Below, in pieces: positions 38,065-43,976 of a stretch of DNA of 56,757 nt. How positions within the stretch are numbered: position 1 is the stretch's first letter; each line of letters opens with the position of its first letter. The notes beneath the pieces were generated by a model that was not told the DNA's origin, did not search any database, and was given only the letters and a program-made list of their open reading frames with translations. Origin of the DNA: Candidatus Geothermarchaeota archaeon. GTDB lineage: Archaea > Thermoproteota > Nitrososphaeria > Geothermarchaeales > JDFR-13. The DNA lies in contig WAKC01000029.1 of the NCBI GenBank assembly GCA_015523605.1, positions 1 to 56,757 on the forward strand, in the 5' to 3' direction. Position numbers and translations under genes: made by a program.

Positions 38065-38535
38065 ATGGCGTTGGATAAGTTGGACCTCAAGATCCTCTAT
38101 GAATTGGTTCAAAACTCTCGGCTCTCCTCTAGGGAGTTGTCTAGGAGACTGGGTGTATCGGTTGGTACGATAGAGTTGAGGAGGAAGAGGCTTGAAGACC
38201 TAGGTATAATCAAGAGTTACACCCTTGAGTTGGATCTTGAGAAACTCGGATATATATTTCCCGTCATGATCGACATTAAAGTTAAGGGGGGTTTTCTTAG
38301 GGAGGTTGAGTCTATATTGAGTAAATATGATAATGTATTATCGGTTTATGATGTTACAGGTGAATACGATATAACTGTATTGGCTTGGTTTAGGACTAGG
38401 AGTGAGTTGGACCAGTTTATAAAAGAGGTTCAGAAGATTGAGTACGTCGATAAGACGCATACACGTTTGATATTGAATATTGTGGCTGAATCTAAGAAAA
38501 TAGGCTTTCTAAGACTTCTTTTTAACGCCTTTTGA
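38065..38535 (+). CDS. Lrp/AsnC family transcriptional regulator
   Basis: 156 residues from the ATG at 38065 (an upstream in-frame start at 38023 would fall in the promoter and palindrome). HTH domain LDLKILYELVQNSRLSSREL...GVSVGTIELRRKRLEDLGII (~5-47), then the RAM ligand-binding domain with a YDVTGEYDITVLAWF core (~93-107). It is divergent from glnA, which suggests control of nitrogen or glutamine metabolism. Its last 14 bases overlap the end of gatC on the other strand. Confidence 0.9.
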   Translation: MALDKLDLKILYELVQNSRLSSRELSRRLGVSVGTIELRRKRLEDLGIIKSYTLELDLEKLGYIFPVMIDIKVKGGFLREVESILSKYDNVLSVYDVTGEYDITVLAWFRTRSELDQFIKEVQKIEYVDKTHTRLILNIVAESKKIGFLRLLFNAF

Positions 38536-38794
38536 GTGGGGGTCCCCTTACATATCCATCTTCATCTAGCTTTAGGTGTTCCATCTCTTCCTGTTCCTCA
38601 ACTTTATCGTCGTCCGGTTCAAGCGTTAAATCCATTGGATGGAAGAGTGGGTCTAAATCCTTAGCAGACTCATAATATTCATCGATTTTATTAAATAGGT
38701 TGAGGATGTATTCCACCGAGTCTACATATTTCACATGTTCTTCCTCGAGCCCAATCATCTCAAGAATCTTCTTAATCTCTTCTCTTCTATCCAT
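38522..38794 (-). CDS. gatC: Asp/Glu-tRNA amidotransferase subunit C
   Basis: 90 residues from the ATG at 38794 with GAGGTG eight bases upstream; a TTG at 38800 overlaps the gatA stop. GatC features: a helical N-terminus (EEIKKILEMIGLEEEHVKYVDSVEYILNLFNKI), a DPLFHPMDL turn, and a C-terminal stretch ending DEDGYVRGPPLKRR that wraps around GatA in known structures. It stabilises GatA. Last gene of the gatB-aspS / gatA / gatC operon. Confidence 0.88.
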   Translation of the reverse strand: MDRREEIKKILEMIGLEEEHVKYVDSVEYILNLFNKIDEYYESAKDLDPLFHPMDLTLEPDDDKVEEQEEMEHLKLDEDGYVRGPPLKRR

Positions 38795-38796
38795 CT

Positions 38797-40215
38797 TCAA
38801 CCCACCTCTTTCGAAGAGTCATATAATTTGCCATCAGTTAAGTAGGCGACTTTAATCAATAAGTCCTCTGAAAACCACCTCGAAATAAATTGTAACCCGA
38901 CTGGAAGACCTTCTATAAAGCCCATTGGGATACTTATAGCAGGGTTTCCAGTTAGATTGGGTATGACTGTATAGAGGTCATGTATATATCCTTTTGGTCC
39001 GAGGGCTTCACCAAACTTCGGTGGTTTAGATGGTGTAGTGGGAATTACAATAAAGTTATATACATCTAATATCTTCTTTACCGAATCTCTTATCCATCTC
39101 CTCAGCTTTAAAGCTTTTAGATAATATTTCCCTTCATAACCCTTACTCGATAATAGAGCCCCTGTTATTATCCTTCTCTTAACCTCTTCTCCAAACCCTC
39201 GTGACCTAGTTATTGATACACTCTTGAAATAGTCTCCAATCTCCTCTAGTAGTCCATATTGGATTCCATCGTATCTCATTAGATTGGATGATGCTTCAAC
39301 CATTGTAATGATGTAATATGTCGGTAGACCCACCTCCATAAAATCAAGATCAATATCGTGAAGTCTAAACCCCATCTCCTCGAGAAGGTCTATCGACCTA
39401 TAGAAAAGCTTTCTTACATCATCATCGGATAACTCGACTATTTTGCTTGAATATGCTATGGAATATCTCTCAGGTGATAACTCTAGATCCTCACCGGTCG
39501 AGATTCTACTTAAGGAATTTCTTAGTCTTCCTCGTCTCCCATCCCTCACCATGGTTCCATCCCTCGGGTCATAATCTGATATATGGTAGAGAACTTTCGC
39601 AAGATCCAAGGGATATTTTGCGAAGACACCTATCTGTTCTAGGCTATCGGCATAGGATATCAGACCGTATCTACTTACCAAGCCATATGTAGGTTTTAGA
39701 CCGAGTATATATGTGTATGAGGCTGGTTGTCTAACACTTCCACCGGTGTCACTTCCAAGTGACGGGGCTCCAGAGACCAATGTTGCTACTGCACTTCCTC
39801 CACTGGATCCGCCTGGTACATATCCATCTTTCCACGGATTTTTAACTGGGCCGAAGTAGCTGGTTTCCGATGTGTTCCCCATAGCAAATTCATCCATATT
39901 AGTCTTTCCAACAACCACAACACCGGCTTCTTTAAGCTTCTTAACTGCGTATGCATCATATGGAGGTATATAATTACTTAGTATACGGCTTGCACATGTG
40001 GTGCGAATCGACTTTGTAGATATATTGTCTTTAACAGGTAAAAGAAGACCCTTCAGTGGACCTTTTGAAGCCTCAATTTCCTTCTGTATCTCATCCCAAT
40101 CCCTAAGTAATGTAAATGCATTGTACCTCTCATCTGAAATTCTAAGTCTTTCATATGTCTTAAATGCGATCTCTATCGGGTCATCCTCAATATCCATATA
40201 ACTTTTTATATCCAT
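38797..40215 (-). CDS. gatA: Asp/Glu-tRNA amidotransferase subunit A
   Basis: About 472 residues from the ATG at 40215, preceded by AGGTGATG; an ATG at 40221 and GTG at 40224 lie in or next to that site. The amidase signature is complete: LPVKDNIS (catalytic Lys), VPGGSSGGSAVATLVSGAPSLGSDTGGSVRQPA (cis-Ser and nucleophile Ser), and GLKPTYGLVSRYG. It hydrolyses Gln and channels ammonia to GatB. The preceding gene stops at 40225, so the subunits are co-translated. In archaea GatCAB serves Asn-tRNA(Asn) formation, since Gln-tRNA(Gln) is made by GatDE. Confidence 0.93.
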   Translation of the reverse strand: MDIKSYMDIEDDPIEIAFKTYERLRISDERYNAFTLLRDWDEIQKEIEASKGPLKGLLLPVKDNISTKSIRTTCASRILSNYIPPYDAYAVKKLKEAGVVVVGKTNMDEFAMGNTSETSYFGPVKNPWKDGYVPGGSSGGSAVATLVSGAPSLGSDTGGSVRQPASYTYILGLKPTYGLVSRYGLISYADSLEQIGVFAKYPLDLAKVLYHISDYDPRDGTMVRDGRRGRLRNSLSRISTGEDLELSPERYSIAYSSKIVELSDDDVRKLFYRSIDLLEEMGFRLHDIDLDFMEVGLPTYYIITMVEASSNLMRYDGIQYGLLEEIGDYFKSVSITRSRGFGEEVKRRIITGALLSSKGYEGKYYLKALKLRRWIRDSVKKILDVYNFIVIPTTPSKPPKFGEALGPKGYIHDLYTVIPNLTGNPAISIPMGFIEGLPVGLQFISRWFSEDLLIKVAYLTDGKLYDSSKEVG

Positions 40216-40224
40216 ATTCATCAC

Positions 40225-42969
40225 CTATGGAATGTAATATCTAGGTGTTCTAGGGAGTAATACCGAGTCAAATATATGGTCAAGGTTGAGCATAGCCATT
40301 ATCAGCCTATCAATTCCCAGTCCGAATCCTCCATGTGGAGGCATTCCATATCTAAACATATTTAGATACCACTCATAACCCTCTTCTCTCAATCCACTCT
40401 CCCTCAGCCTCCTAATTAGAGTCTCTGCATCATTTATCCTCTCACCTCCACTAGATATCTCTAGTGGTATGTCTCTGACAGGGTATATTAGGTCGAAGCT
40501 CAGCGTAAGATTGGGGTCTCTATCGTAAAGCCTGTAGTAAAATGCTCTGGTGGATTTAGGCCATAGGATGATATGATGAGGCTTCCAATCGAATTCCTCG
40601 GCTACAGCTTTCATAGCCTCTAGATTTAGATCTTCACCATACTCGATGTTTACCCCTCTCTCTATGGCGATCTCTATAGCTTCGTTGTAGGTTATCCTAG
40701 GTATCTTATTAATTGGTTCAAGTTTAACTTCAAGTGTATCGAGTTCTTCCCTAGCCTCTATCGAAAGTCTTTTAATTGTGTATCCAATTAGATCCTCCTG
40801 AAGTTTAAGTAGTCTCTCTAGGTTGTAGAGTGCAGCTTCTACATCTAATGACCAGAATTCTGTCAAGTGTCTATTCGTATCGAATTTCTGGGCTCTATAG
40901 TAGCTATCGATCTCGAAGACCTTTTCAAAGGCGTTTAACGCCATCTGCTTATATAGCTGTGGACTCTGGGCTAGGAATGCTTCTCTACCATAATAGAGTA
41001 TTGGGAATAGCTCAGCCCCTCCCTCGCTTGCTGAGGCGATTATCGTAGGTGTATTTATCTCGATAAACCCGTTCTCCTTCAAATATTCCCTGAGAATATC
41101 AATAGCCTTCTCTCTAAATCTTAGTATAGCCCGTATTCGACGACGTCTTATATCTAGATACCTATATTTCATTCTAACGGTATAGGATGATCTTGAAAGG
41201 TCGAGTAGGGATAGAGGTGGGTTATACGTCTCACTTAGGGGGATAACCTCTATAGCCTCTATCTCCACACCGCCAGGAGCCCTTCTATCCTCTTTTAGAT
41301 ATCCGTTGACGGCTACAAATGACTCTTTTGGTAGGCTGTCTAAAATGTTATATACATTTTTTGTGGTGTCTGTAATTATCTGGATTTTCCCAGTCCAGTC
41401 TCTCAATATTATGAAGAGTCTGCCTCCAACATACATCTTGCTTTCTAGCCATCCTGTGACTGTATGCCTCCCCTCCCTAATCAAGAAAGCATCTTTAATA
41501 CTAATCCTATTCTCAAGTATCCTCTGATCATATCTAGGCGTAATCCTCTTTGCTTCCTCCTTCTTCCTTCTCTTCTCCTTCTTAGGAAGCCTTATATCAA
41601 CATATTTCAAGATTGTTTTGACATCTACTACATATCCTTCTTTGCCGAGCTCCTCTATAACCCGACCTATTACATAATCTCTAGTCCTTCTACCAATCTT
41701 ATCTATTGTTGAAAGGACTTTCTCTACAACGTGTTTTACGGTTTCTTCATCAGCATACTCACCCTCTCTACCCTCTAAACCCTTTAACTTCCTCCTCCCT
41801 TCCTCCTTAGTTATAAGCCCCTCTCTATACATTGATAGGATAAGCCTTAGTAGCTGTGTTAGCTTGGGAAGCTCTATAAACCCTCTATTAACCAGAGATC
41901 TCCCCTCGTTCACCAGGAGGCTTGCTAGATAGTTAATATGCTCCTTTTCAACAAGTTTCAGCTCCTCAACTAGGCTGTTGAAGATCTGTAGATATTCTCT
42001 ATCCCTTACGAGGACGTCAGCGATATTCTCTTGGACTCCCTTCGAGACTAAATCATTGATTATGTCCATTCTTAGCTTAGGTATCTCCGTAGAGACCCTC
42101 TCTTTTACCTCCTTAATGTTGATTGGAGGTATGTTCGGGTCTGGAATATATCTATATTCTTCTTCAAACTCCTTCTCTCTCAGAGGTACGGTAACCTTCC
42201 TCCTCTCATCCCAGTGTCTAGTTTCTCTCTTAACCTTTATACCTTCCTCCATATACCTCTTCATCCTCAGAATTTCAAAGCTGATGGCCTTCTCAACGTC
42301 TGTAGCGGAGCCTAAATTTTTAATCTCTACCCTTGCGCCCCCTTCTAGAGACACATTCGCATCGGTCTTTATAGATGGCCCTCCATCCATTAATATGCCT
42401 ATGTCTATTAGGAGCTCAGTTAGTTCTTGTAGGAATTGTTTGGCCTCGCTTGCCTCGGTAAAGTCGGGCTCTGTAACTAATTCTATCAATGGGCTTCCAG
42501 ATCTATTATAATCTATCAATACATATCTTGATTCTCCTAGCCCACCTGGGTGGACCAGCCTGGCAGGGTCTTCTTCTAACTGTATCCTACGAATCCTAAC
42601 TTCTTTTCCATTATTCATCTGGAATATCCCATTTAGGCCGATGGGTCTATACGCTCCCGCTAGGTATTGTGTAATTTGATATCCTTTAGGTAGGTCGGGA
42701 TATAGGTAATGCTTTCTATAAAACTGTATCTTATCGGGGATCTCTGTATGTAGGATAGCAGCTAATTTGACGGCTTTTTCAATCGCTTTCTTATTTGGTT
42801 TTGGTAGTGCCCCAGGTAGTCCTAGACATGTAGGGCATACATATTGATTCGGTTTTTTAGGGGGATATTTATAAGGATTTCTACATCTACAGAATAGTTT
42901 AGATTCTAATGTTGATATGGGTATATGCACTTCGAGACCGATTCTAACCCTATATTCAATCACAACCAC
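40225..42969 (-). CDS. fusion of amidotransferase subunit GatB and archaeal-type aspartyl-tRNA synthetase
   Basis: 914 residues with no stop between the two parts. Residues 1-~455 are a complete GatB: GLEVHIPI, Zn cysteines CRC...CPTC (27-48), LEEDPARLVH, DYNRSGSPLIELVTEPDF (153-170), then helical and YqeY-like tail domains (~300-455). A charged linker (KKEKRRKKEEAKR, 463-475) leads to a complete AspRS (~488-914): OB fold with VTGWLESK...GKIQIITD, class II motif 1 (INTPTI), GGAELFPILYYGREAFLAQSPQLYKQM, motif 2 (YYRAQKFDTNRHLTEFWSLDVE) and motif 3 (GGFGLGIDRLIMAM). It would charge tRNA(Asn) with Asp and present it to the GatB kinase site. Start GTG at 42969 (or 42963); a TATA box at 42996-43003 supports a near-leaderless message. 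Confidence 0.93.
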   Translation of the reverse strand: MVVIEYRVRIGLEVHIPISTLESKLFCRCRNPYKYPPKKPNQYVCPTCLGLPGALPKPNKKAIEKAVKLAAILHTEIPDKIQFYRKHYLYPDLPKGYQITQYLAGAYRPIGLNGIFQMNNGKEVRIRRIQLEEDPARLVHPGGLGESRYVLIDYNRSGSPLIELVTEPDFTEASEAKQFLQELTELLIDIGILMDGGPSIKTDANVSLEGGARVEIKNLGSATDVEKAISFEILRMKRYMEEGIKVKRETRHWDERRKVTVPLREKEFEEEYRYIPDPNIPPINIKEVKERVSTEIPKLRMDIINDLVSKGVQENIADVLVRDREYLQIFNSLVEELKLVEKEHINYLASLLVNEGRSLVNRGFIELPKLTQLLRLILSMYREGLITKEEGRRKLKGLEGREGEYADEETVKHVVEKVLSTIDKIGRRTRDYVIGRVIEELGKEGYVVDVKTILKYVDIRLPKKEKRRKKEEAKRITPRYDQRILENRISIKDAFLIREGRHTVTGWLESKMYVGGRLFIILRDWTGKIQIITDTTKNVYNILDSLPKESFVAVNGYLKEDRRAPGGVEIEAIEVIPLSETYNPPLSLLDLSRSSYTVRMKYRYLDIRRRRIRAILRFREKAIDILREYLKENGFIEINTPTIIASASEGGAELFPILYYGREAFLAQSPQLYKQMALNAFEKVFEIDSYYRAQKFDTNRHLTEFWSLDVEAALYNLERLLKLQEDLIGYTIKRLSIEAREELDTLEVKLEPINKIPRITYNEAIEIAIERGVNIEYGEDLNLEAMKAVAEEFDWKPHHIILWPKSTRAFYYRLYDRDPNLTLSFDLIYPVRDIPLEISSGGERINDAETLIRRLRESGLREEGYEWYLNMFRYGMPPHGGFGLGIDRLIMAMLNLDHIFDSVLLPRTPRYYIP

Positions 42970-43003: not shown

Positions 43004-43016
43004 GAGTGGCATAATG

Positions 43017-43024
43017 TATATAAC
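43017..43024 (+). promoter_or_regulatory. TATA box of alaX
   Basis: TATATAAC, 32-39 bases before the alaX ATG at 43056. It lies inside what would be the 5' extension from an upstream ATG at 43014, so that longer start is unlikely. Divergent with the gat operon promoter within an 86-base intergenic region. Confidence 0.55.
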
Positions 43025-43055
43025 TTTTTATCCAGAGCTCCTCTACAGTATTAAC

Positions 43056-43976
43056 ATGGAGATAAGAGAGTTTAGTGTAAGGCATACTGGGGAACATCTT
43101 CTTATTGGTTCGTTGGTCCGCCGGGTTCCTGGTTCGCGGGTTGTTAGGGTTGTACATGAGGAGCATGTGGATAAAGCTTTTATAGAGTCTAGAGAGGCTG
43201 TTTCATGGGAAGTGGTTCTGGAGGCCGCGAGAGAAGCTAATCAAAGAGTTAAGGAGGGACATATAGTATCTATAGAGTATTTCGATTCACTTGAAGAGGC
43301 TAAGAAGAGGTATCCGTCTCTCAGGGCATATGAGGAGAGGTTAGAGGATAAAACTAGGATCAGAGTCGTTAATATAGGTGGTTTCGACTTCTCGGCGTGT
43401 AAGAATCCGCATGTGGAGAATACTTCTAGCGTAGGTTTGATAGTTCCTCTAAGGGTGTCTAGTGTGAGGAAGGGTCTATATGAAGTTGTTTTTATATCTG
43501 GTTCTGAAGCTGTTGAGAGGGTTTTGAAGGATACTGATATTCTCTATAGAATATCCAGACTCTTGGGATGTAGTAGAGAGGATATTATGAAGAGGGTTAA
43601 TAATGTTGTTGAGGAACTTAATCTCATGGACGAGCTTAGGAAAGAGTATACCAGGTATGTGCTTTATCATCATCCGGTACATGAGGGAAGGGTTAGATAT
43701 TTGTTTGTAAATGTTAGATTACTTGATATGAAGCATCTTATGAGTATTGCATCTAATGTTATGAGGGAACGTGGTATAGATGTTTTGGCTGTGGTTTCGT
43801 GGGATGGCGATAAGAATTCGATTTTCATTGCTTCTAGAGGTGTAGATATTGAAGAGTTTAAATCTAGGATAATGGAGGTGGCTGGAGGTAGTGGTGGTGG
43901 CAGGCCTGGTATGTATATGGGTTATGTAGAGGATGTCGATGGATTTGCAAGTTATTTTAGGGAGTATTTCGGGTGA
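43056..43976 (+). CDS. alaX: alanyl-tRNA editing protein AlaX with DHHA1 domain
   Basis: 306 residues. The editing domain has zinc ligands in RHTGEHLL (HxxxH, ~8-12) and SACKNPHV (CxxxH, ~112-116). A helical linker (~150-215) is followed by a DHHA1 domain ending in GGSGGGRPGMYMGYVED. It hydrolyses Ser- or Gly-tRNA(Ala) mischarged by AlaRS. Unlike typical AlaX it retains the DHHA1 tail of AlaRS but lacks the N-terminal synthetase core. Divergent from the gatB-aspS fusion, so two tRNA-fidelity loci share a promoter region. Confidence 0.88.
   Translation: MEIREFSVRHTGEHLLIGSLVRRVPGSRVVRVVHEEHVDKAFIESREAVSWEVVLEAAREANQRVKEGHIVSIEYFDSLEEAKKRYPSLRAYEERLEDKTRIRVVNIGGFDFSACKNPHVENTSSVGLIVPLRVSSVRKGLYEVVFISGSEAVERVLKDTDILYRISRLLGCSREDIMKRVNNVVEELNLMDELRKEYTRYVLYHHPVHEGRVRYLFVNVRLLDMKHLMSIASNVMRERGIDVLAVVSWDGDKNSIFIASRGVDIEEFKSRIMEVAGGSGGGRPGMYMGYVEDVDGFASYFREYFG

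Follow-up and report, generated by a model that had tools for sequence, protein, structure and literature searches.

In archaea, Asp-tRNA(Asn) is amidated by GatCAB and Gln-tRNA is formed by GatDE, and the stated purpose of the non-covalent transamidosome is to limit the release of Asp-tRNA(Asn) (PMC9499178). Transamidosomes are known as assemblies of separate proteins with tRNA, as in the Asn-transamidosome of T. thermophilus, which comprises a non-discriminating aspartyl-tRNA synthetase (ND-AspRS2), GatCAB, and tRNA(Asn) (PDB 3KFU). AsnRS is thought to derive from archaeal AspRS (PMC4206432). In the window analyzed here, a stretch of DNA of 56,757 nucleotides, GatB and an AspRS are encoded as one protein. 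Literature text searches, with many subscription papers outside their reach, turned up no account of a GatB::AspRS fusion, in agreement with the earlier note on this DNA.

The fusion gene (40225..42969, minus strand) runs as a single open frame of 914 aa from a GTG start at 42969 to a stop at 40227-40225, and Pfam and NCBIfam matches bear out the uninterrupted order of GatB and then AspRS that the note had reported. The N-terminal half opens with the GatB catalytic cradle (residues 9-287; 42109..42945, minus strand; Pfam GatB_N PF02934, 279.2 bits), with zinc cysteines at 27, 29, 45, and 48 and a DYNRSG motif at 153-158, residues that are invariant across nine fusions. It continues through a helical segment into a putative YqeY-like tail (together residues 288-460; 41590..42108, minus strand), the helices of which extend to about residue 460 in the AlphaFold model. 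This half lies above the curated NCBIfam cut-off (NF004012, 382.6 bits against 338). The YqeY-like tail profile (PF02637) had no match in the window protein and scored 21.4 bits, against a cut-off of 27, in the homologue from G006, which aligns to PRK05477 as far as position 478 of 481. A flexible linker of about 20 residues (461-481; 41527..41589, minus strand) joins both enzymes and is disordered in the AlphaFold model at residues 465-471, where pLDDT falls below 50. It had been described as rich in Lys, Glu, and Arg; its rough length is kept among the fusions, but its composition is not, and its sequence is variable. The C-terminal half consists of an OB-fold anticodon-binding domain (residues 503-577; 41239..41463, minus strand; PF01336), containing Pro565, and a class II catalytic domain (residues 597-908; 40246..41181, minus strand; PF00152, tRNA-synt_2, 260.4 bits), with key residues Lys674 and Asp709 in an AspRS-type pocket, Arg692 with Gln694 in motif 2, and Arg888 in motif 3. 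The zinc cysteines, DYNRSG motif, OB fold, and class II motifs 2 and 3 previously pointed out are thus in place. In the AlphaFold model (mean pLDDT 88.3), the protein is predicted to consist of two well-folded enzymes connected flexibly, with their relative placement uncertain (pTM 0.54); in the alignment behind the model, unfused GatBs are misaligned in their tails. The top Foldseek match of the model is the S. tokodaii AspRS 1WYD, with a TM-score on target of 0.94.

The remaining amidotransferase subunits are encoded next to the fusion, as the note had claimed. gatA (38797..40224, minus strand; 475 aa), the glutaminase subunit with the amidase Lys/Ser motifs, matches Pfam Amidase at 375.7 bits and TIGR00132 at 467.3 bits against a cut-off of 481.1, and its possible GTG start at 40224 directly abuts the fusion stop. 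It overlaps by 4 bases with gatC (38522..38800, minus strand; 92 aa), which was assigned from its position and an NF000684 match of 29.8 bits that lies under the cut-off. The gene order glnA-Lrp-gatC-gatA-fusion-AlaRS-like is common to the window and G006. The last of these genes (43014-43976, plus strand), divergent to the fusion, encodes a free-standing protein that looks like the editing and DHHA1 portion at the C terminus of AlaRS and is kept beside the fusion in G001, G002, G003, G006, and G007.

Since the window genome is a 50-contig draft that is 89% complete, an assembly or binning artefact that joined two adjacent genes in error has to be weighed, but we give it almost no credence. 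In a search of 150 related genomes, the same joint frame was found full-length, at 52-54% identity, in six further genomes (G002, G003, G004, G006, G008, and G010), and two more (G001 and G007) carry it cut by contig ends. The G006 genome is a single contig of 1,583,546 bases, and another fusion lies on a 1.14-Mb contig. The artefact reading, which the note had proposed to settle by a search of related genomes, is therefore rejected because the joint frame is conserved in independent genomes. Both halves are under purifying selection (dN/dS of about 0.11), with values between G002 and G003 of 0.106 in the GatB half and 0.108 in the synthetase half. No free GatB was found in any searched genome of the window's family; G005 lacks both GatB and the fusion, and all that G009 shows is a 175-aa frame at the end of a contig that matches GatB_N in part. 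Two sorts of candidate fusion were rejected, namely, a 959-aa GatB frame in G132, which is a GatB gene within a long open frame and contains no AspRS, and bacterial loci where a single match span covers GatB and AspRS, which are encoded there by separate genes.

A survey of 250 genomes across the phylum yielded one additional fused frame, of 933 aa, in G304, which belongs to another class; gatA and gatC come next there as well. The phylum is that of Sulfolobus (Thermoproteota in GTDB), because an AspRS from a further class of it (L203, in G297) matches S. tokodaii 1WYD with zero branch length and full identity over the stretch compared; the window's family thus lies in a different class from Sulfolobus, and a scan of named genomes yielded no member of this family. 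In G304, the module has a PEP carboxylase gene as one neighbor and aminotransferase genes at its opposite end, and the aminotransferase gene that was compared is 72-76% identical to those of close relatives of G304 and 49-60% identical to those of the window's family. The flanking gene is thus native to the G304 lineage, which assigns the contig to G304 and means that the module was presumably acquired by transfer; misbinning is not supported, and this second occurrence also counts against an artefact at the window locus. The gatC of G304 passes the Pfam GatC model, whereas that of the window is weak by profile. Among the matches listed for 44 genomes of G304's class there is no other GatB of comparable strength, and the f25 relatives of G304 have AsnA (archaeal asparagine synthetase A) and no GatB among the matches listed. 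In the GatB tree, G304 falls inside the fusion clade (SH-aLRT 86), a position that would fit a donor near the window's family. From these comparisons, the whole gatB::aspS-gatA-gatC module has apparently moved horizontally between archaeal classes.

The identity of the fused synthetase is less straightforward than its domain matches suggest. It scores above the cut-offs of two NCBIfam models for aspartate--tRNA(Asn) ligase (NF003483, 420.2 against 353; TIGR00458, 371.7 against 368.4) and far under those of the NCBIfam bacterial AspRS models, and it does not reach the AsnRS models (NF003037, 291.5 against 414; TIGR00457, 267.6 against 342.6). Its class II motifs and OB anticodon domain, with the GAD insertion absent, amount to an archaeal-type AspRS architecture. 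The description as an archaeal-type AspRS, although upheld by these cut-offs and by the pocket, is nevertheless incomplete: in a synthetase tree with its root placed at bacterial AspRS, all fused domains fall into a single clade (100/100), which has AsnRS as its sister group (100/98) and lies away from every archaeal AspRS compared. The OB and catalytic partitions analyzed singly gave the same split (support 83 and 98); an alternative topology that groups the fusions with AspRS was not rejected (p-AU 0.071). On the strength of this placement, the C-terminal half might be taken for an AsnRS that charges asparagine and is tied to GatB for some other reason. We regard this as highly improbable, since Lys674 and Asp709, which we take, with reference to PDB sequences, to be the amino-acid pocket residues separating AspRS from AsnRS, are of the AspRS type in 8/8 fusions, as in every AspRS compared, and in 0/19 AsnRSs. 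Moreover, a canonical AsnRS is already present in the genome, and an AsnRS tied to an Asp-tRNA amidotransferase would have no obvious use. Other unusual synthetases were seen in the survey. Two proteins of family f24 (L200 and L211, from G163 and G170) form a separate deep branch beside AsnRS, with the pocket Lys replaced by Gln and the Asp by Glu, a pocket typical of neither AspRS nor AsnRS. Three fusion-bearing genomes (G010, G004, and G008) encode divergent proteins of about 350 aa that resemble AsnRS but lack the anticodon domain (L245, L246, and L247, respectively); L245, the one that was scanned, scores under the AsnA cut-off.

The OB domain bears on which tRNA is charged. Pro565 lies at the site of Pro84 of the non-discriminating AspRS, presumably a mark of tRNA(Asn)-accepting enzymes. 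The ND-AspRSs of S. tokodaii and T. thermophilus share this Pro, as do nearly all AsnRSs; the residue is Lys in the T. kodakarensis AspRS and is deleted from the separate AspRS of the family. In other genomes of the class, the Pro is present in 7/7 AspRSs encoded near gatA/gatB and in 0/5 stand-alone AspRSs, and thus a division of labor between tRNA(Asn)-accepting and tRNA(Asp)-only enzymes looks older than the fusion. The Pro common to the fusion and ND-AspRSs, together with the NCBIfam assignment, would also suit an ND-AspRS that makes no distinction between tRNA(Asp) and tRNA(Asn), as in other archaea. In this variant of the covalent transamidosome, fusion would only fix stoichiometry. We consider this possible, at somewhat below an even chance. 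Against it, the fusions have Glu at a second OB site where ND-AspRSs have His, the fused domain is sister to AsnRS, and nearly all fusion-bearing genomes retain a separate AspRS that lacks the Pro, so that charging of tRNA(Asp) by the fusion looks needless.

In motif 2, RAQ takes the place of RxE in 8/8 fusions and in 0/64 other AspRSs and AsnRSs aligned (Glu to Gln at residue 694; window 40888-40890), a change that could lower or alter synthetase activity. Taken to its extreme, this substitution in all fusions would leave a half dead for aminoacylation that only binds tRNA(Asn) for GatCAB, and the mischarging would fall to the separate AspRS. Such an arrangement appears unlikely, given that the remaining catalytic residues compared are intact, that this half evolves at a dN/dS of 0.108, and that the family's separate AspRS lacks the Pro of tRNA(Asn)-accepting enzymes.

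As to origin, the GatB half is a single clade on a long stem outside the free GatBs of the class. Assembly of the fusion from the class's own aspS-gatA-gatB neighbors was considered and is not supported, as neither half groups with them in the trees. In a more speculative scheme, which we rate rather short of an even chance, the fused domain is an AspRS devoted to tRNA(Asn) and a surviving branch of a lineage ancestral to AsnRS. Such an enzyme would have kept the aspartate pocket, already recognized tRNA(Asn), and been welded to the amidotransferase, and the resulting module would pass from one archaeal class to another and take over from AsnA. A branch beside AsnRS with an aspartate pocket would make the order of events testable, with tRNA specificity coming first and amino-acid specificity later.

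The genomic context limits what the fusion can be needed for. Whole-genome searches for asnS and a second aspS, as the note had advised, found both: a separate AspRS (C8), with T. kodakarensis and S. tokodaii AspRS as best PDB matches, and an AsnRS (C25; 470 bits to the P. horikoshii enzyme). GatD and GatE are also encoded. With these present, the fusion is not the sole route to Asp- or Asn-tRNA, and its reading as the only source of Asn-tRNA is weakened; a role in asparagine supply fits better. AsnA (299-385 bits) is found in 6/6 fusion-less relatives (G005, G011, and four f25 genomes) and in 0/10 fusion-bearing genomes, a contrast that rests on about two independent evolutionary events and in which the absence is weaker than it appears, most of the genomes being incomplete. 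This mutual exclusion points to asparagine made on tRNA(Asn) as the likely job of the fusion. It is not the sole asparagine source everywhere, as AsnB lies above the NCBIfam cut-off in G004 and an equally strong full-length Asn_synthase match occurs in G010. AsnB-like proteins of about 420-440 aa, with a synthetase domain and no glutaminase domain detected, are also encoded in the window genome (L305:1101-2369; C13) and in G006 (L306:270-1598). That of the window genome scores 51.3 bits against a cut-off of 267.1, similar partial matches occur across the family, and these proteins could provide a second asparagine route. Deinococcus and Thermus likewise keep AsnRS, two AspRSs, and GatCAB, and an asparagine-supply role has been proposed there (PMC4206432).

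Taken together, we propose that the fusion is very probably a covalent asparagine transamidosome that loads Asp on tRNA(Asn) for tRNA-dependent Asn synthesis without AsnA, with a separate AspRS serving tRNA(Asp). The covalent transamidosome proposed in the note is in this respect sustained by the complete and constrained halves, the adjacent gatA and gatC, the conserved frame, and the lack of a free GatB in the family's genomes searched, but the essential role attached to it is weakened. The substrates, tRNA(Asn) preference, quaternary structure, and cellular purpose are those we infer from genes and comparisons. The C-terminal half would activate aspartate and charge tRNA(Asn) with it, GatB with GatA and GatC would amidate the Asp-tRNA(Asn), and the linker would let the charged tRNA end travel between active sites; tethering should cut the release of Asp-tRNA(Asn). 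Archaeal AspRS is normally a homodimer, and thus a pre-formed particle of (GatB-AspRS)2(GatA)2(GatC)2 is likely. Such a particle would hold the mischarged tRNA and make tRNA-driven assembly unnecessary. The separate, discriminating-looking AspRS would charge tRNA(Asp), and free asparagine would be charged via AsnRS. tRNA(Asp) thus probably escapes amidation, a question raised in the note, chiefly because another enzyme charges it. A tRNA(Asn) with G1-C72 and G73 was found, intron-bearing in the window genome (L300), and no tRNA(Asp) was found among the genome stretches scanned. Introns occur in many tRNA genes of the window's family (L292-L304).

Among known systems, the T. thermophilus Asn-transamidosome combines the same two activities, here predicted from genes, with an archaeal-type AspRS lacking GAD, and that organism likewise has a second AspRS and AsnRS alongside tRNA-dependent Asn synthesis (PMC4206432, PMC9976931). 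There, however, AspRS and GatCAB are separate and assemble on tRNA, whereas in the window AspRS is covalently joined to GatB, and the window synthetase domain is sister to AsnRS and not to T. thermophilus AspRS2. The archaeal Gln-transamidosome (ND-GluRS:GatDE) likewise channels between synthetase and amidotransferase, and GatDE is encoded in the window genome too, but that complex is non-covalent, serves Gln-tRNA, and uses GatE instead of GatB (PMC9499178). Within the class, aspS-gatA-gatB neighborhoods such as those of G046 and G132 resemble the window in placing a Pro-type AspRS beside gatA/gatB; their genes are unfused and in another order, and neither fusion half groups with that lineage. 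The nearest annotated fusion is AspRS::GatC (NF009460/PRK12820), likewise a covalent link of AspRS to an amidotransferase subunit, which differs in the subunit and in the AspRS (121.1 bits for the window protein against a cut-off of 1379). The AsnA swap and apparent inter-class transfer suggest that the module is a self-contained asparagine-making unit, and a covalent version would offer a fixed particle for studying the hand-over of charged tRNA. Set beside these systems, the unusual synthetase lineage is a more surprising part of the locus than the fusion variant itself.
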